Assembly: GCF_003268635.1 (NCBI RefSeq)
Contig: NZ_CP029639.1
Span: 600,501-664,500 of the forward strand
Length of the DNA: 64,000 nt
From: Paenibacillus sp. DCT19
GTDB taxonomy: Bacteria; Bacillota; Bacilli; Paenibacillales; Paenibacillaceae
Reading direction: 5' to 3'
Shown: piece by piece, positions 24,175 through 39,863 of the stretch
How positions within the stretch are numbered: the first letter of the stretch is position 1
Layout of the letters: every line of letters begins with the position of its first letter
Translations under genes and position numbers: made by a program
Notes under the pieces: model-generated
What the model saw: the letters and a program-made list of their open reading frames with translations, nothing else
What the model was told of the DNA's origin: nothing
Databases searched by the model: none

Positions 24175-24318
24175 GTGCCCAAAATTCCGGAATACAACCC
24201 CATCAAACATAAAGTTATTCAAGTCCAAAATATGCCGTTTTTCCCGTAGTGACGCTGTTTATTGCAGTTTAAGTAATGTGTTCAACCTCCGCGAATTCCT
24301 GATTCAGGAAAAAAAGTG

Positions 24319-24369
24319 TTGACGGGAAAAGTGTTAGGTCTGTATACTGTGTATATTGATATATACAGT
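24319..24369 (+). promoter_or_regulatory. SigA promoter with overlapping GntR-type operator
   Basis: TTGACG (24319-24324), an 18-base spacer, TATACT (24343-24348). Overlapping the -10 box is a near-perfect palindrome, 24346-24369, with arms ACTGTGTATAT and ATATATACAGT around TG. It drives the ABC operon that encodes its own GntR protein, so autorepression is likely. Confidence 0.82.
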
Positions 24370-24428
24370 AAACACAGTGAGCACACAGAACACAGTAAAT
24401 GAATGAAAGTTGAAAGGCAGGCGTGCAT

Positions 24429-25142
24429 ATGAACGCATGGAAGCAAGCGTTGTGGTTGACCCGCAGTGAGATGAGTAAGGATCGATTCCAGTGGTTATGG
24501 AGTGCAATTTTTATGATTTACACGGGCAGCATGAGCGGTGTTATGTTGATTCAGCAACATGAGGTTAGCTTCATTAACCCTGTTGTAGATACCTTTTTTC
24601 TAATCATGGTGCCCTTTCAGGGATTCCTGTTCAGCAGACGTTCATTCCGTTACATACAGGAGGATTCCTATACACAGATGCTGGCCTTTTACCGCAGACT
24701 CCCAATCCCGAATGAAACGGTGATGTGGTCAAGACTTCAGCAGTCGATTCTGACGTTTGCTTATAATGGTATCTTCTTCTACGGATCGTTGTATGTGGTC
24801 AGATTACATGAGGAAGCCTTCCGATGGGATCAATATCTGGCGTTTGCCATGACATGTACAGGATATGGACTTTTTATGACAGGCTTGTACATCTACGGAG
24901 AGTTTCTCTTCAGTGGCAAAAAATACTTACTTCTCAGTGCGCTGCTCTTGCCACTTACCATCGGTTTATCGTTATTAATTCGATTGTCAGGCAGCTACGG
25001 ATTATGGATTGTCATGGATCACAGTAAGAAATGGAGCTTGTTATCCCCGATCATGTGGATTGCTCTGGTGGGTGGTTTAACCACACTATGGCTATTCAGT
25101 CGTCTGACATTGAAGAAGCTGGCATGTCGGGATTTAAGTTAA
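24429..25142 (+). CDS. ABC-2-like membrane protein
   Basis: Product of 237 aa from the ATG at 24429 (GGCAGG upstream; a GTG at 24423 is an alternative). About six membrane helices are visible, with a cytoplasmic YRRLPIPNETVMWSR loop between helices 2 and 3, as in ABC-2-type permeases. It is the first gene of the GntR/ABC operon and probably the membrane partner of the ATPase at 25641. The substrate is unknown; related GntR-linked systems (Ytr type) respond to cell-wall antibiotics. Confidence 0.8.
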   Translation: MNAWKQALWLTRSEMSKDRFQWLWSAIFMIYTGSMSGVMLIQQHEVSFINPVVDTFFLIMVPFQGFLFSRRSFRYIQEDSYTQMLAFYRRLPIPNETVMWSRLQQSILTFAYNGIFFYGSLYVVRLHEEAFRWDQYLAFAMTCTGYGLFMTGLYIYGEFLFSGKKYLLLSALLLPLTIGLSLLIRLSGSYGLWIVMDHSKKWSLLSPIMWIALVGGLTTLWLFSRLTLKKLACRDLS

Positions 25143-25228
25143 TCGTATGAGAGAAAGATGTCACTTGAGAATACAGAAGGAACCGGCGGTACCAGCTTGT
25201 AACTGGGCGAGATGTACCGGAGGGCGAG

Positions 25229-25627
25229 GTGCAAAATGTGAAGATACCGATTCAAATCAATGAAAATAGCGCTGAACCTCTATATCACCAGATTGAAAAT
25301 CAATTAAGATCATTAATCATTACGGGTCAATTAGGGGAGGGAACGCATTTGCCGTCCATTCGTGAATTCGCCGGAGCACTGAACTGTAGCGTGATTACGG
25401 TCAGACGGGTCTATCAGGATCTGGAGAATGAAGGTCTGCTTCGTACGAAGCAGGGGACAGGTACATTTGTAGCCCAAGTTGAAGCGGATGATAGAGAAAA
25501 TTATAGATTGAAGGCTGCGCAGGAAGCGATGCAAGCTGCGGTGCAGTCTGGCAAATCGGTCGGATGTACAGAAGAAGAGATGGAAAGTTTGTTCCGAGAA
25601 GCCCTAAGAATTATTTATCCGAAGTAG
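25229..25627 (+). CDS. GntR-family regulator, YtrA subfamily
   Basis: Product of 132 aa starting at a GTG with GGAGGG just upstream. Residues about 10-75 are the GntR winged helix (PLYHQIENQLRSLIITGQL, then HLPSIREFAGALNCSVITVRR). A short C-terminal helix pair, without a large effector domain, is typical of YtrA. It most likely binds the palindrome at 24346-24369. Confidence 0.92.
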   Translation: MQNVKIPIQINENSAEPLYHQIENQLRSLIITGQLGEGTHLPSIREFAGALNCSVITVRRVYQDLENEGLLRTKQGTGTFVAQVEADDRENYRLKAAQEAMQAAVQSGKSVGCTEEEMESLFREALRIIYPK

Positions 25628-25640
25628 GGGAGGGATTACC

Positions 25641-26539
25641 ATGATGGAGCCTGTGGCTATTCAACTGAACGGCGTATCCAAAATGCGAAAACGTAGAGTG
25701 ATTGGCCCGATTGATCTGACCATCCCGGAAGGGTATGTCATTGCAATCCTCGGTCATAACGGTTCTGGCAAAAGCACACTATTGAATATGCTGCAACAAA
25801 TTGTACTGCCAGATAGTGGACAGATCATATGGTTTGGAGAAGAGCACAATGGACCGCTACCGATAGAGCTGAGACAACAGATTGGTTTTGTGGCAGATAA
25901 CAGCGGGCTTGAAGAGAACCAGCTTACGGCGGAGGAAGCAGTCCGGTTTCGCGCTTACTGGTATCCGCGCTGGGATATGAAGCTGTTTGACCAGCTGATG
26001 AAAGAGATGGACGTGCCGCGGGACGTGAAGCTGATCAAGATGTCCAAGGGAGAACGGCGGAAGTACGAGATTGCAGCTGCACTCGCAGCGCGTCCCAGAC
26101 TTCTTCTGCTGGATGAACCGTCCTCCGGACTTGACCCTTTTGCCTGGAAAGTGATGGTTGAGCAGTTCCGAAACTTCATGGCAGGGGAGATACCACGATA
26201 CTGATTGCTACACATATCGCAGATGAGGTCAAGCGGCTTGCGGATTACATCGTACTGATGCACCGTGGTCAATCCCTGGGCATGGCGGAGAAAGACAGCG
26301 TGCTCGATCAGTGGAGAGAGGTCTGGTATGAAGGAGATCTTCGTCCAGAGAGTATCCCTGGCGTGGTGGAATCTTCTACAGATGAGAATGGTCTGGTGCG
26401 TATTGTGACAACCCGGATCAGTGAAGCACAGGAAAGACTGGAGCTGTCCAGTAATCGGGTGCTGAAAATTCGTAACTTGGAGCTTGATGAAGTACTCGCA
26501 TTCTGGATTGCCGGGTATACACCCATACAATGGAAATAA
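25641..26539 (+). CDS. ABC transporter ATP-binding protein, frameshifted in this sequence
   Basis: One base is missing in the G run 26184-26187; adding it gives 299 aa. The Walker A motif is GHNGSGKST, signature MSKGERRKYEIAAALAA, Walker B LLLDEPSSGLDP. The corrected frame continues IATHIADEVKRLADYIV, the H-loop. The signature is divergent (SKGE), as in YtrB-type exporters. Fourteen bases separate it from the GntR gene. Confidence 0.9.
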
Positions 26540-26556
26540 CCGAAGGGAGACGATAA

Positions 26557-27462
26557 ATGATGAACCGATTGGAATTGACGCAAGTCGTTAAGCAATATGC
26601 AGACAAAACAGCTGTTAATGGAGTCACGCTCAATGTAAAAGAAGGTGAGATTTACGGACTGCTCGGAGCCAATGGTGCAGGTAAAACAACAACGATGCGA
26701 ATGGTACTTGGCTTGATCCACCCGGATGGTGGAAACATCCTATACAACGGCAAGCCGTACAATACGGAGCTGCAACAAATTATGGGCTATCTTCCGGAAG
26801 AACGCGGACTTTATCCGAAGGTGAAGGTTAGTGAGCAGATTAATTATCTGGCTAGGCTTCGTGGGATGAGTGCTAAGGATGCAGATAAGAGCCTGAAGTA
26901 CTGGCTTGAGCGTTTCGAGGTTCCTGAATATTATGACAAAAAGATTGAGGAGCTGTCCAAAGGTAACCAGCAGAAAATGGGCTTTATCGCAGCTGTCGTG
27001 CATCGCCCTCAAATTCTTATTCTAGATGAAGCCTTCAGTGGACTGGATCCGGTGAACGTGGAGTTGCTCAAATCAACCGTTAAGGAATTACGGGATGAAG
27101 GTACAGCTATTCTTTTCTCCACACACCGTATGGAACATGTTGAAGAGTTATGTCGTCAGATCACCATCCTTCATCGCTCTAACACTGTAGTGCAAGGTGA
27201 GATCAAGGAAATTAAGAGTCGCTATCCACGTGAGCAGGTTGCTCTAAGCACTGTAGGTCAAGTGGATGGTCTGGAATTGTTAACAGGTGTAACGAAGGTA
27301 GATCAAAATGAGCGTGGCTACACGATCCATATCAGCCATGTTGATGCAGCTCAGGAGATCCTAAAGCATGCGATGTCCCAGACAACTGTCGAGCATTTTG
27401 AGATTAAGGAACCAACGCTTAACCAAATCTTTATTCGTGAGGTAGGTGAGTCGAATGAATAA
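26557..27462 (+). CDS. ABC transporter ATP-binding protein, NatA-like
   Basis: Product of 301 aa (alternative ATG three bases later) with GAAGGGAG upstream. Walker A GANGAGKTT, signature LSKGNQQKMG, Walker B ILILDEAFSGLDP. The last third resembles the C-terminal domain of NatA/YhaQ-type exporters. It overlaps the permease gene downstream, so the two are a translationally coupled pair. Confidence 0.93.
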   Translation: MMNRLELTQVVKQYADKTAVNGVTLNVKEGEIYGLLGANGAGKTTTMRMVLGLIHPDGGNILYNGKPYNTELQQIMGYLPEERGLYPKVKVSEQINYLARLRGMSAKDADKSLKYWLERFEVPEYYDKKIEELSKGNQQKMGFIAAVVHRPQILILDEAFSGLDPVNVELLKSTVKELRDEGTAILFSTHRMEHVEELCRQITILHRSNTVVQGEIKEIKSRYPREQVALSTVGQVDGLELLTGVTKVDQNERGYTIHISHVDAAQEILKHAMSQTTVEHFEIKEPTLNQIFIREVGESNE

Positions 27463-28753
27463 AATGGGAACGATTACGGGATTTACGTTTAAAAACAAAG
27501 TTAAAACCAAATCATTCATGGTAACGACGATTGTACTTGCAATTCTGATTACGATTGGACTCAATGTGCCATATTTCATTACTTTATTCAATGGTGGCCC
27601 AATTGGTGGCGGAACTTCAGGTAATAACCCGGTAAACATCGGGCTTCTCACATCAGGACAGCCGGAAGTGTCTGAGAAACTGGAGAGCTTCTCTTCGGCG
27701 CAAGGAGATCAAGCATATCGTTTCATCGCGGGTGGTGACAAGGATGAAGCGGCTCTACAAGCTGATACAGAAGCAGGGCTTACGGATGGTTACTTGAAGT
27801 TTGAGGCTGTAGCTGGACAGGAGTTCCCGCAGCCAATCCTGTACTCATCCGACGAGGTATCACCGCAGATCATTGCTTCCATTGAAGCGGCTCTGCAAAG
27901 TGTGAAGCTTGATGTAGTTGTAAGAGACGTGCTCACAGCAGAACAAAAAGAACTGATCACAACACCTGTGAAGCTTACCCAGGAAAGTCTGAGCACAGAA
28001 GAAGGGGCAGTTGGTGCGGAATCGGATAATGGTATGAGCCCGATTAACTACATTGTTGTGTATCTCCTCATTATCCTGCTGTTCACTTCAACGATGATGA
28101 CAGGCAATATGATCGCTTCTGAAATTACAGCAGAGAAGAGTTCCCGCATCATGGAGATTCTTATCACGAGTGTGTCTCCGCTGAGTCAGATGTTCGGTAA
28201 AATCATTGGTATTTTCTTAGTAGGTATCCTGCAGATTGGAATCTTCGGAGCGGTGGTTGCTGCTAATATGTTGCTTCCTCATAACGTTGATGTACTAGGT
28301 GATTTCAATATGAATCTGAGTGACATCAATACGGCTGTCATTGTGTATGGACTTATCTTCTACATCTTAGGTTACTTCTTGTATGCAGTAATGTTTGCTG
28401 CGATTGGCTCAATGGTAAGCCGTACAGAGGAACTTGGTCAGGCAGTTCTGCCAATTACGATGCTGTCGCTCGTCTCGTTCTACATCGCCATCTTCAGTAT
28501 CGCTACACCAAACATTTTGTTGTTGAAAGTGGCTAGCTTCATTCCGTTCACGTCGCCAACTGCAATCCTTGTACGGATCGGTGCTGGCGTTGCCCCAACG
28601 TGGGAGATTCTGACGTCACTTGTAATTCTCGCTGTATCTATTCTGGTCTTTGGCTGGCTCGCAGCTAAAATCTATCGCACGGGTGTACTGATGTACGGTA
28701 AACGCCCAACCTTTAAAGAGCTCTTTAAAGCAATGAAAGCATATAAGATCTAA
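27455..28753 (+). CDS. ABC-2 type permease, NatB-like
   Basis: Product of 432 aa. I prefer the ATG at 27455, which follows GGTAGGTGAG; a GTG at 27446 is possible. It has an N-terminal helix (IVLAILITIGLNV), a large extracytoplasmic domain of about 170 residues, and then five or six helices with the segment MTGNMIASEITAEKSSRIMEI typical of NatB/YhaP. It works with the NatA-like ATPase in Na+ or drug efflux. Confidence 0.92.
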   Translation: MNKMGTITGFTFKNKVKTKSFMVTTIVLAILITIGLNVPYFITLFNGGPIGGGTSGNNPVNIGLLTSGQPEVSEKLESFSSAQGDQAYRFIAGGDKDEAALQADTEAGLTDGYLKFEAVAGQEFPQPILYSSDEVSPQIIASIEAALQSVKLDVVVRDVLTAEQKELITTPVKLTQESLSTEEGAVGAESDNGMSPINYIVVYLLIILLFTSTMMTGNMIASEITAEKSSRIMEILITSVSPLSQMFGKIIGIFLVGILQIGIFGAVVAANMLLPHNVDVLGDFNMNLSDINTAVIVYGLIFYILGYFLYAVMFAAIGSMVSRTEELGQAVLPITMLSLVSFYIAIFSIATPNILLLKVASFIPFTSPTAILVRIGAGVAPTWEILTSLVILAVSILVFGWLAAKIYRTGVLMYGKRPTFKELFKAMKAYKI

Positions 28754-28775
28754 ATAAATTGCAAAAAAAAACAAG

Positions 28776-28866
28776 TGTGCGCTGTCATAATTAGTGATAA
28801 TGTTTTCATAATTTATGACAAAGCTTTTTCAGAATAAATGAGAAATGTATGTTTATGCATAGTTAT
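28776..28866 (+). repeat. Leader repeat L1 of the small-peptide cassette
   Basis: This stretch is about 90% alike to 34751-34818, upstream of the third peptide copy. It begins TGTGCGCTGTCAT, contains a TCATAATTTATGA palindrome (28806-28818), and ends ATGTATGTTTATGCAT. L1 carries about 20 extra bases. It may be a promoter/operator region conserved through duplication. Confidence 0.7.
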
Positions 28867-28903
28867 TCACCCGAAACAGCGTAATATAACTCTGAGCTAA
28901 ATA

Positions 28904-28940
28904 ATGTTGTAGTGGGTGAGTTAAACACCCACTACAACAT
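28904..28940 (+). promoter_or_regulatory. Perfect 15-bp hairpin in the peptide leader
   Basis: ATGTTGTAGTGGGTG (28904-28918) pairs with CACCCACTACAACAT (28926-28940) around AGTTAAA. It ends 28 bases before the ribosome binding site of the peptide gene. It has no T-run, so it is more likely an RNA stability or control element or an operator than a terminator. Confidence 0.7.
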
Positions 28941-28981
28941 AAAATTAAAAACAATTCCAATACACTATGGAGGTAATTAAT

Positions 28982-29164
28982 ATGATTAATCAATTAAATA
29001 CAAAGGCCTATAAGTTAATGAGTGCAGGAGTAGTTGTTCTATTATTAGCATCAGTCATCAGTGGAGAAGGCTCTGTAGTGAAGGATGCCGTTCAAGGGGT
29101 AATGATGGGAGCTGGAGCTGTTTTCGCAGCTGTTGGTCTCTGGATGGCTGGTAGCAAGAATTAA
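28982..29164 (+). CDS. Small hydrophobic peptide, copy 1 of a three-copy family
   Basis: Product of 60 aa from the ATG at 28982. ATGGAGGT ends seven bases before it, so the in-frame ATG at 28967 is part of the binding site. The sequence has two hydrophobic segments, AGVVVLLLASVIS and MMGAGAVFAAVGLWMAG, joined by a polar GEGSVVKDAVQG turn. It ends in SKN. Small size, Gly-rich helices and a charged end suggest a membrane peptide, such as a leaderless bacteriocin or a small toxin. No immunity or export gene is recognised nearby, so this is only a guess. A terminator follows. Confidence 0.85.
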   Translation: MINQLNTKAYKLMSAGVVVLLLASVISGEGSVVKDAVQGVMMGAGAVFAAVGLWMAGSKN

Positions 29165-29177
29165 GAAGAGTTAAAAA

Positions 29178-29217
29178 AGAGAGGTGCTACTCTAGAAATG
29201 GAGTGGCGCCTTTTTTA
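29178..29217 (+). terminator. Terminator of the peptide gene, copy 1
   Basis: GGTGCTACTC pairs with GGAGTGGCGCC, followed by TTTTTT. The loop sequence CTACTCTAG is shared with the hairpin after copy 3. Confidence 0.85.
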
Positions 29218-29546
29218 ATATTTACTCAAGTAGATTTTTTATTTTGAAACTTATAGACTGGTCATCCATAATCATTGCTGAAATTACTGTAAATTTGTAA
29301 TTATTATGAATTAGGCTAACGGGTAGGAGAGTTGAACAAATGCATAGAATGAGTTGAATTTTACGGCTTTATTCTATAGAACTTAATGCATCTAATGAAA
29401 TGTAGATTAACGAATAGGAGGGAGAGAAATTATGAAGCTGAGGAATACCTCTCAGCTTCATGAAAAAATCAATAAACAATCAGAGTACCACTTCTAAAAA
29501 TATCTACACGGTAAGTAAAAGAACAACGCTTCACGCTTGGGGATTG
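29218..29546. other. Gene-poor accessory stretch
   Basis: It holds a degenerate piece of the TAACGGGTAGG repeat (29323-29335) and a perfect 11-bp inverted repeat ATGAAGCTGAG/CTCAGCTTCAT (29432-29461). A 21-codon ORF (29432-29497, MKLRNTSQLHEKI...) with AGGAGGGAG upstream starts inside that stem. I cannot say whether it is translated. Confidence 0.35.
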
Positions 29547-30410
29547 TTACCTTAAAGTCTTCACAAGTGCGGCAACTTCCTCGTTTCCATACCCATCTTG
29601 TATCGCTCTGCTGAACATATTCTTGGCAAATTCGGGGAAATCATCATTGATTCCAGCTTCATGAGCTTGCTGCTGTAGTAATTTGATTGTTATCATACAG
29701 TTGTTAATTGAAGTTTGGGGCGTGGCATATTGTTCATTATGAATAACTTCACTCTCGTACTTCATGACAGCTCCGATCATAGGTGAGATGCTCGCAATCA
29801 GTTGGCCCAAGCCGTTGACTTCGAGGCCATCCGATTCCATAATACGCGCTGCATGGAAGAAACCGATATAAGATGCAAATAAATAGGCGAGAAATGCCAG
29901 ATCTGTTGTCGAAGCTGCACTGACCTTTTCTCCAAGAAAAGGAGCGTACCCTGCTAAACTCTCAATGATATCTATATTCCCATCATAAGCAGCCTTCGTA
30001 CCGGAAAAAAATATGGCCGCTTCCGGTTGTCCAATTTGAGAGGGCGATGCTGCGATGGCTCCATCCAGATAACTGGTTCCCTGAGCAAGCATCCATTCGC
30101 CTAAGTCTCTTGCCTGCTGCGGACTTCCTGTACTTAATTGTATTACAGTACGCCCCATAAGGGTGGAGCGAACGTCTGATTTATCCAAAATTTCATAGGA
30201 CGCTTCATAATCGGATACACAGACAATCGATGTCTTACTGGCACGGATAGCTTCGCCAACAGTGGATACATACCGTGCCCCTTTTTGAACAAGTTCCCCT
30301 GCTTTATCTGAAGAACGATTCCACACATAGACCTGATATCCTTTTTCCAGCAAAACACTCGCCATTGCATTTCCCATCGAGCCAAGTCCAATAATCGAAA
30401 TATTTTTCAT
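29547..30410 (-). CDS. NAD(P)-dependent oxidoreductase, imine reductase-like
   Basis: Product of 287 aa. A Rossmann start reads SIIGLGSMGNAMASVLLEKG, with VWNRSSDKA selecting NADP. The family features SYLDGAIAASP and a helix with D170 (TTDLAFLAYLFASYIGFFHA) match imine reductase/beta-hydroxyacid-dehydrogenase-like proteins, where that Asp is the proton donor. Its ATG overlaps the upstream small protein by four bases. The divergent WYL regulator probably controls the pair. Confidence 0.88.
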   Translation of the reverse strand: MKNISIIGLGSMGNAMASVLLEKGYQVYVWNRSSDKAGELVQKGARYVSTVGEAIRASKTSIVCVSDYEASYEILDKSDVRSTLMGRTVIQLSTGSPQQARDLGEWMLAQGTSYLDGAIAASPSQIGQPEAAIFFSGTKAAYDGNIDIIESLAGYAPFLGEKVSAASTTDLAFLAYLFASYIGFFHAARIMESDGLEVNGLGQLIASISPMIGAVMKYESEVIHNEQYATPQTSINNCMITIKLLQQQAHEAGINDDFPEFAKNMFSRAIQDGYGNEEVAALVKTLR

Positions 30411-30778
30411 GCTTTTGTTCCTCCTTTTTCTGCTGGCATTAAATGCCTCATTACCATATCATTCGGATCTATCATGGATACAAAGTTTCTAAATTCCAAG
30501 GTGGTAGGCAATTGCTTCAATGCAGATAGAGCTGATTGCATATCCTTCCAGGAGATCAAATCAGTCCAACTTATCTCGTCCTCCGTACATAATAAGCTTC
30601 GCCGTACAAAACCAGGAACTTGATGTATAAGTAATTGCTCCAATTCTTCCGCGGCTCTAATAAATTGTACGCGGTTGGATCCGTCCTTCAGTCTGAACAT
30701 GACTAGTTCCAGCACCTCATCCGGGTTGTTATTTATCTCAGTTTGCTGATCCGTTCCCTGTTTCAACATTTGTTCCAT
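30407..30778 (-). CDS. Dimeric alpha/beta-barrel protein, antibiotic-monooxygenase-like
   Basis: Product of 123 aa. A beta strand ELVMFRLKDGSN is followed by a helix (FIRAAEELEQLL) and PGFVRRSLLC, then WTDLISWKDMQSALSA. This pattern of a ferredoxin-like barrel half resembles the ABM/EthD-like families. Translational overlap with the imine-reductase-like gene suggests a joint function. Confidence 0.7.
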   Translation of the reverse strand: MEQMLKQGTDQQTEINNNPDEVLELVMFRLKDGSNRVQFIRAAEELEQLLIHQVPGFVRRSLLCTEDEISWTDLISWKDMQSALSALKQLPTTLEFRNFVSMIDPNDMVMRHLMPAEKGGTKA

Positions 30779-30853
30779 TCCTTATCCATTCCTCTCATCG
30801 TTCAGTTCAGTGTTAGTTATATTTGCTTGACTACATGACTCAGTATACGAAAT

Positions 30854-30878
30854 AATAGTGACAACTAATGACACTATT
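30854..30878. promoter_or_regulatory. Candidate operator in the WYL/IRED divergent promoter
   Basis: AATAGTG and CACTATT face each other with an 11-base spacer. It lies in the 140-base gap between the divergent regulator and oxidoreductase genes, just where a shared operator is expected. Confidence 0.6.
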
Positions 30879-30920
30879 TATAGGTGCTTTTAAAATATAT
30901 TTAGGAGTTGTAGTATCCAA

Positions 30921-31871
30921 ATGAACAAAGCACAACGTCTTGTCCAGCTCATCATGCTGGTAAACGAACGTAAAACCTTTACCATTCAGGAATTAGCAGA
31001 TGAATGCGGTGTATCTCGTCGGACGATGACCCGCGATCTCATGGAGTTAAGCGAACTTGGTGTACCCCTATATTCACAGCCAGGACCCGGTGGGGGTTAC
31101 CGTGTGCTACGAGACAAGGTGCTTCCGCCCATACTGTTCACCGAGCACGAAGCAACTGCATTATTTCTTGCTGGACAGTCATTGAAGAACTATCGCCATC
31201 TGCCATTTGATAATGAAGTAAACAGCGCTCTGCACAAGTTCTATCATTACCTTCCGAATGAGATGAAACAGAAGATAGATCATATGCAGCAAAAGCTTGT
31301 ATTCTGGATTCCACCACATCAATTAGAAATTCCGCACCTGAAGGGTTTACTCGATGCCGCACTGAACCCGCATCCAGTTCGAATTACTTATGAAGCTGCA
31401 CAACGTAAAGAGAGAATTATTCATCCCATTGGACTCTATACGATGAACGGATTGTGGTATTGTCAGGCATACTGTGAGTTGGCACAGGACCATCGAGTAT
31501 TTCGAGTAGACCGGGTCCAGGAACTGATTGTGCTCCCACAACAGGATGTAGTTGAGATTAAATTAACGGAGAAAGAGAATATACGACCGTGGATCATGAG
31601 GATGGATGACACGGATACAATTGAGCTTGAAGTCCATCTGACTGCTGAAGGCGTCAGGCGTTGCCAATCCGAGTTATGGTTGTCTTCTTCAATCAATATC
31701 CACGAAGATGGTTCTGGGATTATAAGGCGCTCTATTAGTTCTTCTTACCAGTTGTGGGCTGTACACTTTTTCTTAGGGCTTGGTATCGAAGCCAACGTCT
31801 GCCGACCCGCTAAGTTAAGGAGCCTTGTTCAAGAGAAACTGCAGCAATTGCTTGAACTCTATCAGAGCTAA
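30921..31871 (+). CDS. HTH/WYL-domain transcriptional regulator (YafY type)
   Basis: Product of 316 aa. Residues about 5-55 are an HTH (FTIQELADECGVSRRTMTRDL), and GPGGGYRVL follows as in HTH_11 regulators. The WYL domain is seen as RKERIIHPIGLYTMNGLWYCQAYC near residues 160-185, with a C-terminal WCX-like extension. It probably senses a small ligand and controls the divergent imine-reductase-like operon. Confidence 0.92.
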   Translation: MNKAQRLVQLIMLVNERKTFTIQELADECGVSRRTMTRDLMELSELGVPLYSQPGPGGGYRVLRDKVLPPILFTEHEATALFLAGQSLKNYRHLPFDNEVNSALHKFYHYLPNEMKQKIDHMQQKLVFWIPPHQLEIPHLKGLLDAALNPHPVRITYEAAQRKERIIHPIGLYTMNGLWYCQAYCELAQDHRVFRVDRVQELIVLPQQDVVEIKLTEKENIRPWIMRMDDTDTIELEVHLTAEGVRRCQSELWLSSSINIHEDGSGIIRRSISSSYQLWAVHFFLGLGIEANVCRPAKLRSLVQEKLQQLLELYQS

Positions 31872-32213
31872 TGATTAAAATTCCAACATAGATTAGTAGC
31901 ATGTAACTCTAAAAAAGGCTGCTACTGTGAACATTAGAGCAACAACCGCACTTCTAACTCGATAGGCTATATCCTTGGGCGTACAAAAAATAATGACAGA
32001 CTACTTAATGAATACTGCTATCCGACAATCATTTTTATAAACTATGAGAATCAACATATCCATAACTTATTAAGCTAACGTAGAAACGATAGCTCAATAG
32101 TAAAACCAAGAAAGCAGCTGATCATTACGATTGGCTGCTTTTATTCAACTAACGGGCAGGTTAATTGAACTTGACTAGGGCATAATACTGACAAAAATAT
32201 GGAGGCAATGCTC
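31872..32213. other. Intergenic stretch with a dispersed hairpin repeat
   Basis: No gene seen. The repeat hairpin copy A lies at 32111-32141 and is flanked by GCTAACG and AACTAACGGGCAGG pieces. The rest is A/T-rich and carries the leader of the next gene. Confidence 0.5.
32111..32141 (+). repeat. Dispersed hairpin repeat, copy A
   Basis: AAAGCAGCTGATC, loop ATTAC, GATTGGCTGCTTT, then TTATTCAACTAACGGGCAGG. The same hairpin with compensating changes occurs at 39759-39789 and 43193-43222. It looks terminator-like, but the shared flanks indicate a dispersed repeat. Confidence 0.75.
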
Positions 32214-32774
32214 TTGTCTAAATGGATTATTTCATTGGTTATAATGTTTATCATTTCTGCTGAAATTAACAATAGTCAGCTCATCGTATTAGCTAAACCT
32301 ACGTCAGCTTTTTCATATGTTGAACTGGACAAGCTAAAACCTGTTGCGGACTTCAAAATAATAACACCTTCTTTCTCCATACAAAGCTATAAATTGGAGA
32401 TTAAAGAACCATATCCGTTTAATCCAGATCAATCTGTTTCCAAAGTTAGGCTTCACTTTTTTGATGAATCAGGAGAGTCATATATGTTTGGTATTGAAGA
32501 ACATAAGGCGGTTGGTTATAAAATAAACCGTGATATTACTACGATCGATGTTCGTAACCAAACAAGTACAACAAGAACTGTAGTCGAAGACTTTAAATTT
32601 AGTGAACGTAGAGAGAAAATTAACATAAATGGAATTAAAGGGAGTTTTGAAGCATGGGTTAACCATGTACCAGGTGGATACTTACGATGGGTACATAATG
32701 GTACTTTCATTCAAATGGATAGCGGAGAATTAACTAAAGAGGAAATGACCGCGTTGGCAAGATCAATGAAATGA
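32214..32774 (+). CDS. Exported protein, DUF4367-like
   Basis: Product of 186 aa. I prefer the TTG at 32214, seven bases after GGAGG; the ATG at 32199 overlaps that site. A signal-like hydrophobic stretch (SKWIISLVIMFIISA) begins the protein. The C-terminal part, ending WVHNGTFIQMDSGELTKEEMTALARSM, matches the pattern of DUF4367, a domain common on secreted Bacillales proteins that precede sporulation or anti-sigma genes. The exact role is unknown. Confidence 0.75.
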   Translation: MSKWIISLVIMFIISAEINNSQLIVLAKPTSAFSYVELDKLKPVADFKIITPSFSIQSYKLEIKEPYPFNPDQSVSKVRLHFFDESGESYMFGIEEHKAVGYKINRDITTIDVRNQTSTTRTVVEDFKFSERREKININGIKGSFEAWVNHVPGGYLRWVHNGTFIQMDSGELTKEEMTALARSMK

Positions 32775-32823
32775 TTTAGTTAACGGGTAGCAATAGCTCA
32801 ATAAAAGCAGGAAGGCATCAAAC

Positions 32824-32970
32824 ATGAGTCGCTAAGTTGTTCTACTCTCAGCATCAGTCATCAGTGGAGAAGGTTTTGTGGTGAAGGATGCAGTTCAAGG
32901 GGCGATGATGGGGGCTGGAGCTAATATCGCAGCTGTAGGTCTCTGGATGGCTGGTAGCAAGAAATCATGA
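32824..32970 (+). pseudogene. Remnant of the small hydrophobic peptide, copy 2
   Basis: This stretch matches codons about 13-60 of copy 1. The 5' end is replaced by unrelated sequence, and after ATGAGTCGC a TAA stop is in frame with the rest (VVLLSASVISGEG...AAVGLWMAGSKKS). There is no alternative start with a ribosome binding site. Unlike copy 3, a single-base fix does not restore it, so this is a true remnant. Confidence 0.8.
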
Positions 32971-33035
32971 AGGTAGAAGAACACCTTTTATAAGATTGTG
33001 AAGGAGTTCGAGAAGATGAATGCTTTATAATTTGA

Positions 33036-33076
33036 AAAAAACAACAGGAGGGCAATTTTATCGACTGTTGTTTTTA
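33036..33076 (+). terminator. Terminator-like hairpin after copy 2
   Basis: AAAAACAACAG (33036-33047) pairs with CTGTTGTTTTT (33065-33075) around a 17-base loop. T-run present. Confidence 0.6.
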
Positions 33077-33696
33077 TTGAGGTAAGTGCTCTTTTTTAAG
33101 AAATCCACTGCATATCATCAATTTTCATGGGGCAAATATGAAGTGAAATAATCTTTATAAAAATGACTAACATACACTACCACCATGGGGAGGCATTTTT
33201 AGTTTTATAGAGAGTGGATATCAGTTAATTGCGTATTGATATGAGAAGAGCTTCTGCTTCTGCAACAGGAGCGAAGTTTTTGCACCTAAGATGCTTACAC
33301 CCATTAAGAAGAATAAGGAAAAATTAAAACTTTAGGGCGGATGCTAGTGGCTCTAAAGCGACAAGAACGGCTACTTATTGGATCGCTACGTCCAGCTGCA
33401 GTGTTGCTCAGATCCATTACTATAGCGCCTAAGCTTGGATCAAAGCGTCTTGGCACGGCGCTCTACGTTCATGTCTCCCGCTTCATAAACTTAAGGGAGC
33501 CAAATTCAAGAGCAAAGCATCCTGATGTGTGTATCATTGACTCTATCAGAGGTACCATTATGGAATGAGATAGTTTTCAAAGAAATTATATAACATAATT
33601 TTAATTTAATTAGTAAATAATGTTAATTTTATGTCACTCATAAGCTCAGTAGCACTGATATAATTTCTCCTAGGTGCTAGATGAAAGGGGAATATA
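33077..33696. other. Gene-free stretch
   Basis: I find no supported gene in these 620 bases. A second hairpin with a T-run, CTTCTGCTTCTG/CAGGAGCGAAG (33251-33281), could be the terminator of a lost gene. The ORF at 33341-33568 has no ribosome binding site and no family, and the frame one base over reads like a decayed C-terminus (TYWIATSSCSVAQIHYYSA), so this may be a decayed coding region. Confidence 0.4.
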
Positions 33697-34455
33697 GTGT
33701 TGAAAAAAGAGCTTGGTGTAGTAATGCTGTTGAGTGCTGTTTTGCTTTCAGGTTGTGGGTCAGATAAGCTCGAAACAGATACGCAGGGTGCTGGGGATTC
33801 TTCGAGTACACAAGTAACGACACAACCGGAACAAGGGTCAGACTTAAATAAAAAACTAATTCAGAGTTCGGATGATAATAAAGTTAAATTGTTTGCAATT
33901 AATGAAAAAGATAATGAAGTTCAAGGCACTACATTAGAGCTCAATGGCAAAACGAAGGACTTTAATTGGACTTTTCCAGCTGTAGAAGAATATAAACCTC
34001 AAGTCTACTTTGCTGATGTTACAGATGATGGAACAGAGGAAGCAGTTATAACAGTTTTCAAAAATAGAAGTCCAGGAGTTTACCTCGAAGAGATCCATGT
34101 TGTAAAGTCGGATGATTTGTCTGAAATTAATATTGAAAACCCCTTAGAGATTATAACAAAATCTGTTGAGACCAGTGTTCAGAACAATGAGGGTTCATTA
34201 AATGTGACAGTTAAGATTGGTGACAAGCAACATGAGTTAGTTCACGAAGGCGACTCAGATTTTGAGTACAAGAAAGAACTGAATTTTGGTGGTGTTGTTG
34301 ACTATAACGTAGTCAACAACAAAATTGTTGCTAAAGTGGATGGAAGTGTTGGCATAGGTGAATATGTTTGTTCCTTAACAGTGAATTATAAATATGACAG
34401 TGCTACCAAAATGTTTACTGCGGACAAGATTGAATTTTCTCCAATAAATGAATAA
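33697..34455 (+). CDS. Lipoprotein of unknown function
   Basis: Product of 252 aa starting with GTG at 33697 (AAAGGGGAA upstream). The signal peptide ends in lipobox LLSGCG. A Ser/Thr-rich linker follows. The body has YFADVTDDGTEEAVITVF, a VCBS/FG-GAP-like calcium-loop pattern, and later beta-rich segments. It is probably anchored on the outside of the membrane. No family is certain. The shared terminator with the antisense remnant lies 30 bases downstream. Confidence 0.8.
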   Translation: MLKKELGVVMLLSAVLLSGCGSDKLETDTQGAGDSSSTQVTTQPEQGSDLNKKLIQSSDDNKVKLFAINEKDNEVQGTTLELNGKTKDFNWTFPAVEEYKPQVYFADVTDDGTEEAVITVFKNRSPGVYLEEIHVVKSDDLSEINIENPLEIITKSVETSVQNNEGSLNVTVKIGDKQHELVHEGDSDFEYKKELNFGGVVDYNVVNNKIVAKVDGSVGIGEYVCSLTVNYKYDSATKMFTADKIEFSPINE

Positions 34456-34494
34456 AAAAGATAGCTGAACCATAAAAGATTCAGCTATCTTTTG
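34456..34494. terminator. Bidirectional terminator
   Basis: AAAAGATAGCTGAA pairs with TTCAGCTATCTTTT. A/T runs flank both sides, so it serves the lipoprotein gene on the plus strand and the minus-strand ORF at 34525. Confidence 0.85.
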
Positions 34495-34524
34495 TCTTAG
34501 GCGACATAACATCTTGCTTAATTT

Positions 34525-34812
34525 TTAAGGAATGATGTTAAAGAACATGTGACCACCGATAGCGATTTTAGAAGAGACCTGGAAAGTGCCTGTTCCCGGC
34601 ATTTTGTAGTACAGCTTACCATTTTCAGTGTAGGATAAATTGTTGAATAGTGATGTGGCGGTGTAGTATAACTTGTCTCCAATGGGATTTTTGTGGGCGG
34701 TCACATTGGAAGCAAGAGATACACAGTTTTTCCAAGCTGCACTGTTTAATTGTGCGCTGTCATGATTAGTCGTAATGCTTTCATAATTTATGAGAAGTGT
34801 ATGTTTATGCAT
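34525..34812 (-). CDS. Possible small or truncated ORF
   Basis: Product of 95 aa, with weak evidence. The ATG has only AGAGGA about 14 bases upstream. The composition (YTENGKLYYKMPGTGTF and NNLSYTENGK) looks like a secreted protein's C-terminus, and it ends at the bidirectional terminator, which favours a real or recently lost gene. The first codons (MHKHT) occur also at copy 1's leader, where the frame soon stops. No family recognised. Confidence 0.35.
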   Translation of the reverse strand: MHKHTLLINYESITTNHDSAQLNSAAWKNCVSLASNVTAHKNPIGDKLYYTATSLFNNLSYTENGKLYYKMPGTGTFQVSSKIAIGGHMFFNIIP

Positions 34813-34818
34813 TGTTAT
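34751..34818 (+). repeat. Leader repeat L3 of the small-peptide cassette
   Basis: Homologous to L1 (28776-28866): same TGTGCGCTGTCAT start, TCATAATTTATGA palindrome (34781-34793), and ATGTTTATGCAT end, with about 20 bases fewer. Presence upstream of two peptide genes shows the whole cassette was duplicated. Confidence 0.75.
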
Positions 34819-34932
34819 ACAGCCAATCCTCTAAAAATACGAGAAAAAGTCAGCTTTATAATAAATGTTGTTGTGGTTGATTTTAAGAATCCATTACAAA
34901 AAACTACAAAACAAACAATGGAGGCGATTAAT

Positions 34933-35118
34933 ATGATTAATCAAATTAAATACAAAGTCCTGTAAGTTAATGAGTGCAGCAGGAGTAGTTGTTCTACTAT
35001 CAGCATCAGTCATAGGTGGAGAAGGTTCTGTAGTGAAGGATGCCGTTCAAGGGGCGATGATGGGGCTGGAGCTATTATCGCAGCTGTTGGTCTCTGGATG
35101 GCTGGTAGCAAGAAATAA
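34933..35118 (+). CDS. Small hydrophobic peptide, copy 3
   Basis: As printed, the frame breaks twice: one extra A at 34943-34945 and one missing G at 35062-35065. Correcting both gives 61 aa beginning MINQLNTKSCKLMSAAG and ending AVGLWMAGSKK, parallel to copy 1, with the same length as printed. ATGGAGGCG precedes the ATG. A homologous terminator follows. Both lesions sit in homopolymers, so the gene may be intact. Confidence 0.7.
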
Positions 35119-35144
35119 GAAGTGAATGAAGAGGTAAAATGAAG

Positions 35145-35177
35145 AGATAGGCTACTCTAGTGGAGTAGCGTCTATTA
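35145..35177. terminator. Terminator of the copy 3 cassette
   Basis: AGATAGGCTACTC pairs with GAGTAGCGTCTATT around TAGTG. It resembles the hairpin after copy 1 and ends at the stop of the minus-strand AraC gene, so it is bidirectional. Confidence 0.75.
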
Positions 35178-36074
35178 TTTCGTTTTCTCCAGTTCACTTC
35201 TGAATTCCCTGAAACCTTTAGGGGTTCTTCCTTGATCCTTTTTGAAGGATTGGATGAAGTGATTCACATGATTGAAGCCTACTTTGCCAGCGATTTCGGT
35301 AATCGTATCATCTGAGGTCACGAGTAGTTCGCAGCTTTTCTTAATCCTATATTTGATAAGGTACTCATATGGCGTCATGTGAACTGTCTTTTTGAAACTT
35401 CGTGTACACTCCGAAATGCTCAAATGCGCTGTATCGGCAATCTCCCGTAGCGTGATCGGACTCGAGTAGTTCTGATGGATAAAACTCAGCATAAGCTGCA
35501 GCCTTTCCTGCTGCCGTTTGGCATGTTTTGGCACATCCTCTTGCGATAGCGAAAGGTTGGATATCAGGCTGAACCAGAGCTGTACGGTCATGATCGAAAT
35601 CTCATACTCCCAACCCCAATTTTTGTTTCTAATGAATACTCGTCTCATGTTCCAAAGCATGTCCAGAGCTTGCTTTTCCCACTCGGCATTATCAGCAATC
35701 ACGATCGAAACGAAAGAAGAACGAGTGTAGGGGAGCACATACTTCTCTTCCATGGTGCTGTCTGCGTGGAACGCGAGTAGCTTCTCGGGAAAGTTAAAAC
35801 TTACATATTCGCCATCCTGGCTCAGCTGTGTCGTGACATGAAGAATTCCTTTGTTAATGAGAATCGCCTGCCCGGTCTTTAACTCATGATCAACTCCGTT
35901 GACTTGAATGACGAGTGTTCCTTTCGTGACTAACGTGATCTGTAGCTCTTCATGCCAATGCAGGTCGTTGAATCCTCTACCTTCGGGAACACTTGTATAG
36001 AGCGTATGGGTGTACATGATATAGGGAAATGAATGATCGGGATATGCAATTGTCTCGTGCAACGGTTTGGGCAT
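35175..36074 (-). CDS. AraC-family transcriptional regulator
   Basis: Product of 299 aa with GAAGG upstream of the ATG. The N-terminal half is a cupin-like ligand domain (WHEELQITLVTKGTLVIQVNG). The C-terminal ~100 residues hold two HTH motifs (ITLREIADTAHLSISECTRSF and TITEIAGKVGFNHVNHFIQSF). The divergent EamA-type transporter gene is the obvious target. The ligand is not known. Confidence 0.93.
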   Translation of the reverse strand: MPKPLHETIAYPDHSFPYIMYTHTLYTSVPEGRGFNDLHWHEELQITLVTKGTLVIQVNGVDHELKTGQAILINKGILHVTTQLSQDGEYVSFNFPEKLLAFHADSTMEEKYVLPYTRSSFVSIVIADNAEWEKQALDMLWNMRRVFIRNKNWGWEYEISIMTVQLWFSLISNLSLSQEDVPKHAKRQQERLQLMLSFIHQNYSSPITLREIADTAHLSISECTRSFKKTVHMTPYEYLIKYRIKKSCELLVTSDDTITEIAGKVGFNHVNHFIQSFKKDQGRTPKGFREFRSELEKTK

Positions 36075-36231
36075 ATCAGAGAAACCTTCTTTCGATGACG
36101 ATATATCTATATTTTTCAGCGATATACTTGCACGTTTTATATAAAAACGATGATATTATCATATCATATCTATGGCTTATCACTAGAGCCTGTGCACAGA
36201 TGATCGGATAAGACCTCTTGGAGGGTTTTAA

Positions 36232-37138
36232 GTGAAAGAACGTAAAGCATCGTTACCTCATCCTTATGTACTTCTTTTTATCGCCATATTAGCAGTTTCC
36301 GTTTCTTCGATTATGATAAAATTTTCAGATACACCAACCGCTATAGCAGGTATGTATAGGCTTTACATTTCAGCGTTCATTATGCTTCCTTTTGTCTCAT
36401 GGACAACGATTCGCTCCCTACGTTTGAACGTCAAGGAGTGGGTGATGCTCTTTCTGGCAGGTCTGCTCTTGGGACTGCATTTCTTATTCTGGATGGAGTC
36501 GCTCGTGTATACTTCGGTGGCAAGTTCTATGGTCATCTTAGCGCTGCAACCACTGTTTGTCATGATTGGTTCATATTTTGTCTTCAGGGAAAGAGCCGGT
36601 ATATTGAGCGTACTCTGTTTAGTGACTGCGCTACTTGGTTCCGTCATAATTGCTTGGGGAGATATCGGTGTATCTAGAGAAGCACTCATTGGGGACGGAT
36701 TATCTTTAATCGGAACGATATTTATTTCAGCTTATATGTTAGTAGGGCAGAAGTTGAGTAAACGAATTGAAGCCAATCTATATAGTGTCGTGGTCTTCTT
36801 TATTGGGGAAGTGTGCTACTCGTCTACAGCATATTTAGGGGCTTTTCCTTAACCAACTATGCTTCTTCGGACTGGATCTATTTTGTCCTCCTTGCGATTA
36901 TTCCCACGATTTTCGGCCAATATATTTTCAATCGACTGCTCAAAACGATAGGGCTACAACGGTATCCGTAGGTATTATTGGAGAACCAGTTCTGGCAATT
37001 ATTCTGGCTTATCTATTCTTGGGAGAAACCGTTACCACTTTTCAGTTTATAGGTGGATTAATAACGCTGCTGGGTATGCTGATGTACTTTTGGCGACAAT
37101 CCATACAATATGCAGCTTCGAAGCGTCTATCCTATTAA
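36232..37138 (+). CDS. EamA/DMT-family transporter, frameshifted twice in this sequence
   Basis: Two bases are missing, in the G runs 36838-36841 and 36951-36953. Adding them gives 302 aa, the normal EamA length, from a GTG with GGAGGG upstream. Ten membrane helices follow the two-fold EamA pattern; corrected, the second half contains TTVSVGIIGEPVLAIILAYL, the family signature. It is a drug or metabolite exporter, probably under the AraC-type regulator. Confidence 0.88.
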
Positions 37139-37186
37139 ATTAACTGTGAAAGCAACAGGGAAATTCTAAATTTGGAGGAATGTTGA

Positions 37187-37519
37187 ATGGCAACTTTTGA
37201 TGACTTTCTAAAACTGGATCTTCGTGTGGGAACAATTATTAATGCAGAATTCTTTGCAAAAGCTAAAGTCCCGGCGATCAAACTTGAAATTGATTTTGGT
37301 TCAGACATTGGTATTAAGTCCTCCAGCGCACAAATCACAAAAAGATATACAGCTGAAGAAATTATCGGTAAACAGATTGTAGCAGTTGTGAACTTTCCAC
37401 CTCGCCGAATTGCGGGATTCGATTCGGAAGTTTTGGTGCTGGGCGGAGTGCCCGAAGCAGGGGATGTTGTATTGTTAAAACCGGATTCTAATGTACCCAA
37501 TGGAACACAAATCGGATAA
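37187..37519 (+). CDS. csaA: CsaA-type tRNA-binding-fold protein
   Basis: Product of 110 aa with TTGGAGGAATG upstream. The whole chain is one OB-fold EMAP-II/tRNA-binding domain: FDDFLKLDLRVGTIINAEFF, then SSAQITKRYTAE and VVNFPPRRIAGFDSEVLVLG. CsaA proteins act as export chaperone-like dimers. It lies just upstream of the ArsR gene but ends before its promoter. Confidence 0.95.
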   Translation: MATFDDFLKLDLRVGTIINAEFFAKAKVPAIKLEIDFGSDIGIKSSSAQITKRYTAEEIIGKQIVAVVNFPPRRIAGFDSEVLVLGGVPEAGDVVLLKPDSNVPNGTQIG

Positions 37520-37566
37520 ATTAACTGAAGCCCACCAGAGGATTACTACTTTGGTGGGTTATTTAA

Positions 37567-37594
37567 TTGACATATCGAGAAAAAACGATATACT
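37567..37594 (+). promoter_or_regulatory. SigA promoter of the ArsR gene with overlapping operator
   Basis: TTGACA (37567-37572), a 16-base spacer, TATACT (37589-37594). The arms ATATCG (37572-37577) and CGATAT (37586-37591) form an inverted repeat in the spacer. Transcription would start about seven bases after the -10 box, at or next to the ATG at 37602, so the mRNA is leaderless. Confidence 0.8.
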
Positions 37595-37601
37595 AAGTTT
37601 C

Positions 37602-37916
37602 ATGGAATTAATCGATGTATTTAAAGCTTTATCGAATGAGACTCGTCTAAACATTCTGAAGTGGTTGAAGGAGCCGGAGCTGCACTTTCCTAAACAAGGC
37701 GCACACATTCCGAAGGAGGAGAATTTTGATGGTGGAGTGTGCGTAGGTGATATTCAAGAAAAAGCTAAGGTTTCCCAGTCTACAGTATCCCACTATTTAA
37801 ACATAATGCAAAAGGCGGGTTTACTGGAATCTGTACGTTATGGTCAGTGGACGTATTATAGGCGAAATGAAAGTTTTATTCGAGAAGTAATTGAATTTAT
37901 GGAAATAGAAATCTAA
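37602..37916 (+). CDS. ArsR-family transcriptional regulator
   Basis: Product of 104 aa from the ATG at 37602 (MELIDVFKALSNETRLNIL); the upstream frame to 37491 overlaps csaA and crosses the promoter. There is no ribosome binding site, which agrees with a leaderless start. The winged helix reads DIQEKAKVSQSTVSHYLNIMQKAGLL. Cysteine is scarce (only GGVCVGD), so a metal-sensor role is unlikely. It most likely represses its own gene and the DMT pair downstream through the shared operator. Confidence 0.88.
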   Translation: MELIDVFKALSNETRLNILKWLKEPELHFPKQGAHIPKEENFDGGVCVGDIQEKAKVSQSTVSHYLNIMQKAGLLESVRYGQWTYYRRNESFIREVIEFMEIEI

Positions 37917-37950
37917 AAAAATAAAACTAACCATTTTTTTTGTTCTAATT

Positions 37951-37969
37951 TATCGATTATTCTCGATAT
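37951..37969 (+). promoter_or_regulatory. Second ArsR operator, upstream of the DMT pair
   Basis: TATCGATTATTCTCGATAT matches the reverse complement of the operator in the arsR promoter in 17 of 19 positions. It lies about 65 bases before the first DMT gene. Confidence 0.8.
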
Positions 37970-38033
37970 CTAAATTAACAATAAATTATCATGATCCGGC
38001 ATGGATCAGGTTCAAAAATAGGAGATGACGTGC

Positions 38034-38468
38034 GTGAAGAAAATAATTTTTTATATGATTGCCATTTTTACTGGAGCTTTACTCAGTCTTGAGGGAGCTT
38101 TATATGGCAAGCTAGGGGAACAGGTTGGGACGTTGGAGACGAACTTTTATAACTTCTTTATGGGAGCAATCATTGCGCTTATCCTTCTTATTTTTTTTGG
38201 ACGAGGCAACTTAAGACAAATTACCACATTTCCTAAATGGAATCTAATTGGCGGTGTTTTGGGTGTTACGTACTTATTGGCCTTGGTTATTGGTGTTCCT
38301 ATTGTAGGTGTGGGAATTTCCATGATTGCGATTGTTGTAGGACAGATGGTTACCAGCATGTTGATTGATCATTTTGGTTGGCTCGGAAGTACTCGTAAAC
38401 GGATTGGTTCTAAACGAGTGGCTGCTTTGATACTCATGTTGGCTGCACTGGTATTTACTTTATTTTAA
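38034..38468 (+). CDS. Small DMT transporter subunit, YdcZ family (first of a pair)
   Basis: Product of 144 aa from a GTG at 38034 (GGAG nine bases before; the ATG at 38025 overlaps it). Four or five membrane helices with the short conserved stretch of YdcZ/DUF606 permeases (LSLEGALYGKLGEQVG, GQMVTSMLIDHFGWLG). Such proteins work as heterodimers of two half-size subunits; the next gene is the partner. Confidence 0.88.
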   Translation: MKKIIFYMIAIFTGALLSLEGALYGKLGEQVGTLETNFYNFFMGAIIALILLIFFGRGNLRQITTFPKWNLIGGVLGVTYLLALVIGVPIVGVGISMIAIVVGQMVTSMLIDHFGWLGSTRKRIGSKRVAALILMLAALVFTLF

Positions 38469-38488
38469 GTAAGAAGGAGAATTTTATT

Positions 38489-38956
38489 ATGGGAATTGGA
38501 TTATTAATTGTAATTGTGACGTTGATAGGTGGTGCTGTGCTTGGAGCCCAATCTTCCCTAAATGGTAAGATCAGTCGCACAATTGGACTTTTAGAAACAG
38601 TATTTTTTACCTTTGCCTCTGGCGCCTTAGTTTTAGCGGTGCTCGTTGTTTTTTTTGGAAGTGGACATCTTTTTGATCTTATTCATGCACCAAAGCTGCA
38701 GTTGGCAGCTGTTTTCTTAGGATTTGGTTACCTATTCTTATCAACATTTTCTGTAAATATGATTGGAGTTACTCCTGCCAACCTAACTGCAATTGTTGGA
38801 CAACTGTTAGCAGGATTTGTGATAGATGCTATGGGTCTCTTCGGTAGTGAAATCATCAACTTCTCGTGGCAACGAGGCGTTTCACTTGTACTGATGTTAG
38901 TTGCACTGGCGCTGATTTTTAGTGAAAAAACAGGTAGAGTCGAGAGTGTAAAATAA
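38489..38956 (+). CDS. Small DMT transporter subunit, YdcZ family (second of a pair)
   Basis: Product of 155 aa with AAGAAGGAGAA upstream. It has five membrane helices and motifs homologous to the preceding subunit (GAQSSLNGKISRTIG, GQLLAGFVIDAMGLFG). The two genes are 20 bases apart and form one operon under the ArsR operator. A strong terminator follows. Confidence 0.88.
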   Translation: MGIGLLIVIVTLIGGAVLGAQSSLNGKISRTIGLLETVFFTFASGALVLAVLVVFFGSGHLFDLIHAPKLQLAAVFLGFGYLFLSTFSVNMIGVTPANLTAIVGQLLAGFVIDAMGLFGSEIINFSWQRGVSLVLMLVALALIFSEKTGRVESVK

Positions 38957-39043
38957 AGTCGGATTTTATCGTGAATATCTGGGAACAACAGCAGCGGGAA
39001 GTCGAAACGTTCACCGGAGTCACGTTAATTCCAATATAAAAAA

Positions 39044-39076
39044 TGGAGCCATTGTCTAAAACAATGGCTCCTTCTT
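39044..39076. terminator. Bidirectional terminator
   Basis: GGAGCCATTG pairs with CAATGGCTCC; A-run on the left and TTCTTT on the right. Confidence 0.85.
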
Positions 39077-39086
39077 TATGAAATGA

Positions 39087-39557
39087 CTATTTTGATAAAC
39101 TTGATGGAACATCAGGATCAGTCGGGTTTTCATCATTTAAGGTTTTACCTAAGAGCAACGAATTGGGATAATTTTTAGAAAATTCTGCTTCATCTACTTT
39201 TAAAAAAAACTTGCCTTCAAAAATCAGTTGATTCGTATTAGGCTCGATTTCATCTATAGTTCTTGCGATCTCCGATTCCTTAAAGATACTTTGTTCATCT
39301 GCTCGGACGAACATGCCATCAGGTGTATAGAATTGAGTAGAATACCCGTTTGCGATTTTTGATTCTACGGATTCTACGTTTTTTACGGGTTCTTCGAATT
39401 TCACGTTATTTTTTGAAATATTCGTGTTAACAGGGATTCCATCTGTCTTATTTTCGGCTTCCGCTTCTGGATAGGTGTCCGCTTGTGAATTGGATAGTAA
39501 GGTTACTCCTGAAATAATAGTCATTGCAAAGGCTATTAAATATATTTTTTTGAACAT
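39087..39557 (-). CDS. Exported protein of unknown function
   Basis: Product of 156 aa from the ATG at 39557 (GGGTGGGGAC upstream); the frame extends to 39575. A signal peptide (FKKIYLIAFAMTIISGVTLL) precedes an acidic, hydrophilic body with FYTPDGMFVRADE and FEGKFFLKVDE. No membrane anchor or lipobox. No family recognised. Confidence 0.7.
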   Translation of the reverse strand: MFKKIYLIAFAMTIISGVTLLSNSQADTYPEAEAENKTDGIPVNTNISKNNVKFEEPVKNVESVESKIANGYSTQFYTPDGMFVRADEQSIFKESEIARTIDEIEPNTNQLIFEGKFFLKVDEAEFSKNYPNSLLLGKTLNDENPTDPDVPSSLSK

Positions 39558-39758
39558 AATGTCCCCACCCTTCATACCAACAATTATTTCCTACTTTATA
39601 ACGGTATATTCAGTAAAGTAGTAAGAGCCTATTTCGTTTTGCTGTGCAACTGGTTTCCAAAAGGATAATAACGCAGAATCCCGACTCATAGCGAGCATAA
39701 TGGAGCCAAACGGTCTACTGCTATCGACTACTAGACGGGTCATGAATTAATAACACAA

Positions 39759-39789
39759 AGAAAGCAGCTGATCAACTTGATCGTCTGCT
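39759..39789 (+). repeat. Dispersed hairpin repeat, copy B
   Basis: AAAGCAGCTGATC, loop AACTT, GATCGTCTGCTTT, then TTATTCAGTTAACCTG. Same element as copies A and C. Confidence 0.75.
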
Positions 39790-39863
39790 TTTTATTCAGT
39801 TAACCTGTTTGTACGCTGACAAGAAATTGATAATTGTTTATAAAATGATTATATGCTAACATG

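Follow-up and report, generated by a model that had tools for sequence, protein, structure and literature searches.

The closest described counterparts of the elements considered here are Tn7, which inserts at attTn7 behind glmS, and Tn6677. They share with our elements the proteins TnsA, TnsB, TnsC and TniQ, TGT...ACA ends with repeated motifs, 5-bp target duplications and, in the case of Tn7, insertion just 3' of a conserved gene. Unlike in Tn7, the apparent attachment gene codes for an ABC-2 (ATP-binding cassette type 2) permease and is part of an operon that the insertion interrupts; moreover, a copy of the gene next door is present beside the end of some elements. The operon in question, together with three copies of a gene for a small hydrophobic peptide, lies in a 64,000-nucleotide stretch (the window; bases 600501-664500) of the 6.67-Mb chromosome of Paenibacillus sp. 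DCT19 (genome G000). Among described exporters, the Pmt exporter of staphylococci and the Ytr operon of Bacillus comprise two ATPases, two membrane proteins and a regulator of the GntR family. The operon in the window resembles them in parts, with PmtR as the top NCBIfam match of its regulator, but it scores far under the equivalog cut-offs, has another gene order and ends with an extra gene for a two-helix peptide. Some site-specific integrating elements, for their part, restore the end of the gene into which they insert.

We consider it likely that the peptide gene is the ancestral terminal gene of this operon, that the 3' end of the second permease gene (perm2) is a site for Tn7-like transposons, and that two such elements, since decayed, left the peptide copies found in the window. 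The features concerned are:

27446..28753, plus strand: perm2, ABC-2 permease gene (PF12698, 172 bits), its 3' end the putative transposon attachment site
28754..28775, plus strand: 22-bp gap from the perm2 stop to the transposon terminus, read from the sequence (16-22 bp in 11 type A loci)
28776..28873, plus strand: left end of a Tn7-like transposon (leader L1), matched by a profile from ten other genomes (E=3.7e-19)
28874..28911, plus strand: sub-terminal transposon DNA, matching at 92% over 38 nt the corresponding stretch of an element that genome G005 carries at a different site
28982..29164, plus strand: peptide gene copy 1, an intact 60-codon open reading frame (ORF) behind GGAGG, encoding 60 residues
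29177..29216, plus strand: terminator-like hairpin 3' of copy 1
32835..32970, plus strand: peptide copy 2, a 5'-truncated pseudogene
34751..34824, plus strand: second left-end relic (leader L3), matched by the profile from ten other genomes (E=5.2e-10)
34933..35118, plus strand: peptide copy 3, a frameshifted pseudogene
35151..35169, plus strand: hairpin 3' of copy 3

A first-pass annotation of the window had described these copies as a duplicated, free-standing expression cassette, with shared leaders and terminators. The places of all three copies hold, and genome-wide searches with the protein and with the cassette DNA gave no further convincing copy. Copy 2 is decayed, as had been said, having lost its first ~19 codons and gained an in-frame stop. 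Copy 3, taken at first as likely intact, has two frame changes, one near codon 5 that soon runs into a stop and another that alters helix 2, which leaves copy 1 as the only intact gene. The upstream DNA of copies 1 and 3 is indeed similar (49 nt at 88% and 46 nt at 85%) and the hairpins behind them are alike; the annotation was right about a duplicated unit. By their sequence, the duplicated leaders are left ends of a Tn7-like transposon and not expression leaders. They start with TGTG(C/T)G and carry repeated motifs resembling TCATAATTAGTGAGAA, and beyond L1 and L3 the left-end profile has no match below E=1 in the window. The G005 element, located at a different site, has the same end and sub-terminal stretch as the window leader (E=4.7e-31; 78% over a gapped 135 nt), and in relatives without the peptide the leader DNA stands just 3' of the perm2 stop codon. 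Transposon ends can thus pass for duplicated leaders.

The elements in related genomes are Tn7-like transposons, as indicated by their tns and tniQ genes and by inverted ends with 5-bp duplications. Inverted opposite ends with repeated motifs were located downstream of the left ends, and five of the eight left/right pairs that could be read by eye have perfect 5-bp target duplications (G028 GTGAG, G030 ATGTT, G037 GGTGT, G039 AAAAA and G045 GTGAG); in the G019 pair the duplication matches at 4 of 5 bases. The 24-kb element of G030, the one examined gene by gene, encodes TnsA (PF08722), a TniB-type TnsC (PF05621) and two TniQ proteins above the Pfam cut-off. Its TnsB has weak Pfam matches and matches the solved Tn6677 TnsB (E=1e-19), its TnsC matches the Tn6677 protein of solved structure (E=5e-39), and the larger TniQ weakly matches a solved TniQ (E=3e-5). 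TniQ is present in 22 of the 75 genomes of the genus searched, and pairs of TniQ genes lie near perm2 in G030, G037, G039 and G045. A DndB-like gene (PF14072, above cut-off; locus L095, 7649-8662, minus strand) adjoins the tns genes of the G030 element, and an ORF similar to it was seen by eye in G039.

The preference of these elements for perm2 is clear from the positions of their ends. Perm2 is present in 74 of the 75 genus genomes; in 17 of the 67 loci where the perm2 stop could be placed, the window among them (the counts leave out G016 and G045, which were inspected by eye), a transposon end lies at a fixed distance behind the gene. Three end types are involved: type A in 11 loci, with the terminus 16-22 bp behind the stop, type B in four (L123, L126, L131 and L121) and type C in two (L096 and L113). 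With one mismatch allowed, the type A pattern occurs 40 times in 26 of the 75 genus genomes and the reversed pattern not at all. The exact pattern gives 22 sites in 18 genomes of 6 genera among 295 genomes of the family, again with none for the reversed control. Nine of these 22 sites directly follow perm2, and five of the nine belong to three other genera and lie 16-29 bp behind the stop; the remainder are opposite ends or other sites. We infer that the perm2 3' end serves as an attachment site of Tn7-like transposons and that TniQ proteins may recognise this gene end. It is proposed that the transposons insert 16-29 bp past the perm2 stop with a 5-bp duplication and would thereby split the permease gene from the peptide gene. 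At least four genera of the Paenibacillaceae have this apparent attachment site, which is internal to an operon. Among the matches listed in the literature on Tn7-like elements with Paenibacillus or ABC transporters, none has a perm2-type attachment site, and the main text of two surveys (PMC8649781, PMC10293859) mentions neither Paenibacillus nor an ABC transporter; in the literature searched, a Tn7-like attachment site behind an ABC-exporter permease gene was not found described.

The peptide itself belongs to a family that the first-pass annotation did not recognise, and searches with hidden Markov models bear this out: Pfam, NCBIfam and PHROGs have no family above cut-off and at most weak matches below E=0.1 (the search did not extend to PADLOC or to dedicated bacteriocin sets). 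The AlphaFold model has two helices, at residues 3-27 and 31-57 (mean pLDDT 69, pTM 0.33), in agreement with the two hydrophobic helices noted earlier. Close relatives are 17 proteins, all named ones from Paenibacillus; a broader profile finds 88 proteins, the named ones nearly all from Paenibacillus and one labelled Acinetobacter sp. The peptide is under purifying selection, with a pairwise ratio of nonsynonymous to synonymous substitution rates of 0.00-0.31 in 44 of 45 pairs among ten intact members, the remaining pair being saturated.

Within the genus, 12 of the 75 genomes have a peptide match. Perm2 loci of 69 out of 74 genomes were examined for it (G008, G009, G024 and G038 were not included, nor was G028, whose locus was read separately), and in nine of these a full-length copy starts 53-229 nt behind the perm2 stop. 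Remnants lie behind perm2 in G012, G072, G060 and G059, and in G023 the peptide is 2.2 kb from perm2. In other genera, the profile found divergent homologues in 12 genomes; 11 were fetched (G271 was left out), and in all 11 loci the homologue adjoins a perm2 orthologue of 44-57% identity. Perm2 was also found in 19 of 20 loci chosen for having two copies (5 of them among the 11 fetched), with the first copy no more than ~45 nt away in 17 and 330-360 nt away in two. Across the family, peptide-like matches occur in 72 of 295 genomes and 10 of 19 genera, a count that includes weak matches, some of them within long unrelated frames. Since the divergent homologues of other genera immediately follow perm2, the peptide gene is probably the ancestral last gene of the ABC operon. 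Its product is probably a two-helix membrane protein, a helical hairpin that would probably work in the membrane with the ABC exporter. A two-helix peptide family without a name thus gains a genomic home.

That the peptide is instead a leaderless bacteriocin, a type I toxin or a free-standing cassette, as first suggested, is very improbable. In favour of this are its small size, its hydrophobicity and the lack of a family match above cut-off. Against it, the gene keeps its terminal position after a permease gene across several genera, as a component of the operon would, and searches of viral contigs, phage records and plasmid records turned up no relative. On the same lack of family matches and of relatives in these records, bacteriocin, toxin and holin were all rejected as candidates. 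The suggestion that ABC genes might co-occur with the peptide, on the other hand, proved right, since an ABC-transporter operon adjoins copy 1. In another genus (L215-L231), a second divergent paralogue with the motif LLGALQT lies 0.1-17 kb behind the first copy on the same strand. Such second copies were considered as displaced native genes flanking islands, and this was discarded because their sequences are those of distinct paralogues.

The peptide may also have moved with the transposons. In the window, in G060 and in G059, the left end is closely followed on its inner side by the peptide or a remnant of it, and the complete G028 element holds the leader and the first codons (by eye). In G059, a unit of left end plus remnant also occupies a non-perm2 site, with no perm2 within the 19.9-kb piece and no right end found, and in G002 an intact peptide stands between the old flank on one side and, 2.2 kb beyond, a right end on the other. 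The synonymous divergence of the peptide is much lower than that of perm2 in some species pairs (0.20 against 0.60 for G000-G002; 0.33 against 0.80 for G000-G017) and not lower in others (0.35 against 0.21 for G002-G003; 0.71 against 0.68 for G000-G046). Together, these observations indicate that the peptide passed from species to species and settled behind perm2, the outcome that carriage by Tn7-like elements would give. They would also suit a peptide that is chiefly transposon cargo, for example a small membrane effector, and that stays behind perm2 only where elements have decayed. We regard this as unlikely, since the divergent homologues behind perm2 in other genera stand mostly 15-75 nt off without a type A end, and no intact peptide was seen in any element with both ends and tns genes.

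An ancestral operon gene that also travels with the elements could be explained by a further step, which we put forward tentatively: transposons homing to the site between the two operon genes may have captured a copy of the downstream gene, carry it inside the end beside the upstream gene, and so rebuild the junction on insertion. If true, each insertion would restore the permease-peptide junction, be harmless and spread the peptide gene between species; the transposon would bring along a possible replacement for the gene that it separates from the operon. The presence of peptide copies or remnants inside element ends suggests, without proving, such a rebuilding of the interrupted operon. G239 and G197, which represent two other genera, have a type B end (2 mismatches) with perm2 on one side and an intact peptide gene on the other; under the search settings applied, each motif has one occurrence in 328,640 background bases. 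In G314 an end before the peptide was recognised by eye, where the pattern search has no match. With the order permease, end, intact peptide seen for both type A and type B, it is as if the solution arose more than once. The elements would then be like those that rebuild a gene end in supplying what they displace, and unlike them in that a whole separate downstream gene is supplied, by a DDE-type transposon. The missing intact peptide in elements with both ends and tns genes counts against this step as well, as does the lack of an adjacent end at most loci that have an intact peptide. A left end beside the peptide would also look the same if it were the relic of a deletion that rejoined operon and peptide.

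For the window, ancestry in the operon and transposition to perm2 together would account for the present arrangement. Two elements probably arrived in this genome and then decayed, leaving a unit of end plus peptide beside perm2 (copy 1), a decayed unit 6 kb off (copy 3), a fragment (copy 2) and accessory genes between them. Since new insertions are expected beside perm2, the unit closest to it should be the younger, which fits an intact copy 1 and a decayed copy 3. A possible but less favoured account has the copies and leaders arise by direct-repeat recombination, from one element followed by duplication and unequal exchange. Related genomes do keep shorter versions of the region, with two peptide copies around one gene in G034 and one copy directly before the same AraC gene in G035, and recombination between copies therefore probably acted too. 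As the sole origin it is opposed by the second unit, which also starts at a transposon terminus, and by G066 (locus L102), where by eye a right end is followed directly by a second left end; the duplicated unit there consists of an end, a small ORF of another kind and a hairpin. The G066 arrangement is the window's pattern with another gene.

Several results weigh against the transposon history preferred here. In the window no complete Tn7-like element was found, only two left-end relics; no right end matches below E=1 other than at the two left-end places, and the genome has no TniQ gene, so that the elements there are deduced from left ends only. Two of the eight readable pairs, those of G066 and of G005 (the latter at another site), have no target duplication. 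At 60 of the 69 genus perm2 loci the peptide is missing or decayed, so that the exporter can do without it. Ten loci of the genus have an intact peptide, and in eight of them no left end separates it from perm2, the exceptions being G000 and, with a right end, G002.

The remaining genes of the operon precede perm2:

24423..25142, plus strand: perm1, putative ABC-2 permease gene (weak Pfam ABC2_membrane_5 match below cut-off; orthologue at the same place in related loci)
25229..25627, plus strand: GntR-family regulator of the operon (PF00392, 60.9 bits; top NCBIfam model PmtR, 81 bits against a cut-off of 200)
25641..26539, plus strand: first ABC ATPase gene, frame broken near 26.18 kb (ORF of 187 residues against 298-299 in five relatives)
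26557..27462, plus strand: second ABC ATPase gene (PF00005 and DrrA1-3_C above cut-off)

The NCBIfam equivalog cut-offs for the Pmt-type phenol-soluble modulin exporter are missed throughout (PmtR 81 of 200 bits; PmtA 104 of 350, with the broken frame; PmtC 104 of 375). The break in the first ATPase gene sits in a G run (window 26140-26260) and reflects either a true mutation or an error in the sequencing. The hairpin 3' of the peptide gene resembles, by eye, the terminator that the ABC operon itself has in species lacking the peptide. The region of the three copies has 16 promoter-like matches against a shuffled mean of 18.7, no excess over the control, and Rfam gives no match at gathering score in 24000-40000; terminator-like matches number 7 against a shuffled mean of 4.1. 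The motif TAACGGGYAGS has three sites in the window (29317, 32150 and 32781) against 0.05 expected, all within this region. A cassette array marked by this motif was considered but not adopted, since across the genome related patterns are no more frequent than their reversed controls (3 against 4, and 18 against 24 when two mismatches are allowed). A sequence like it is present in related islands. Between the copies, 29547-31871 holds an NAD-binding, reductive-aminase-like gene, a small ORF and a divergent WYL-domain regulator.

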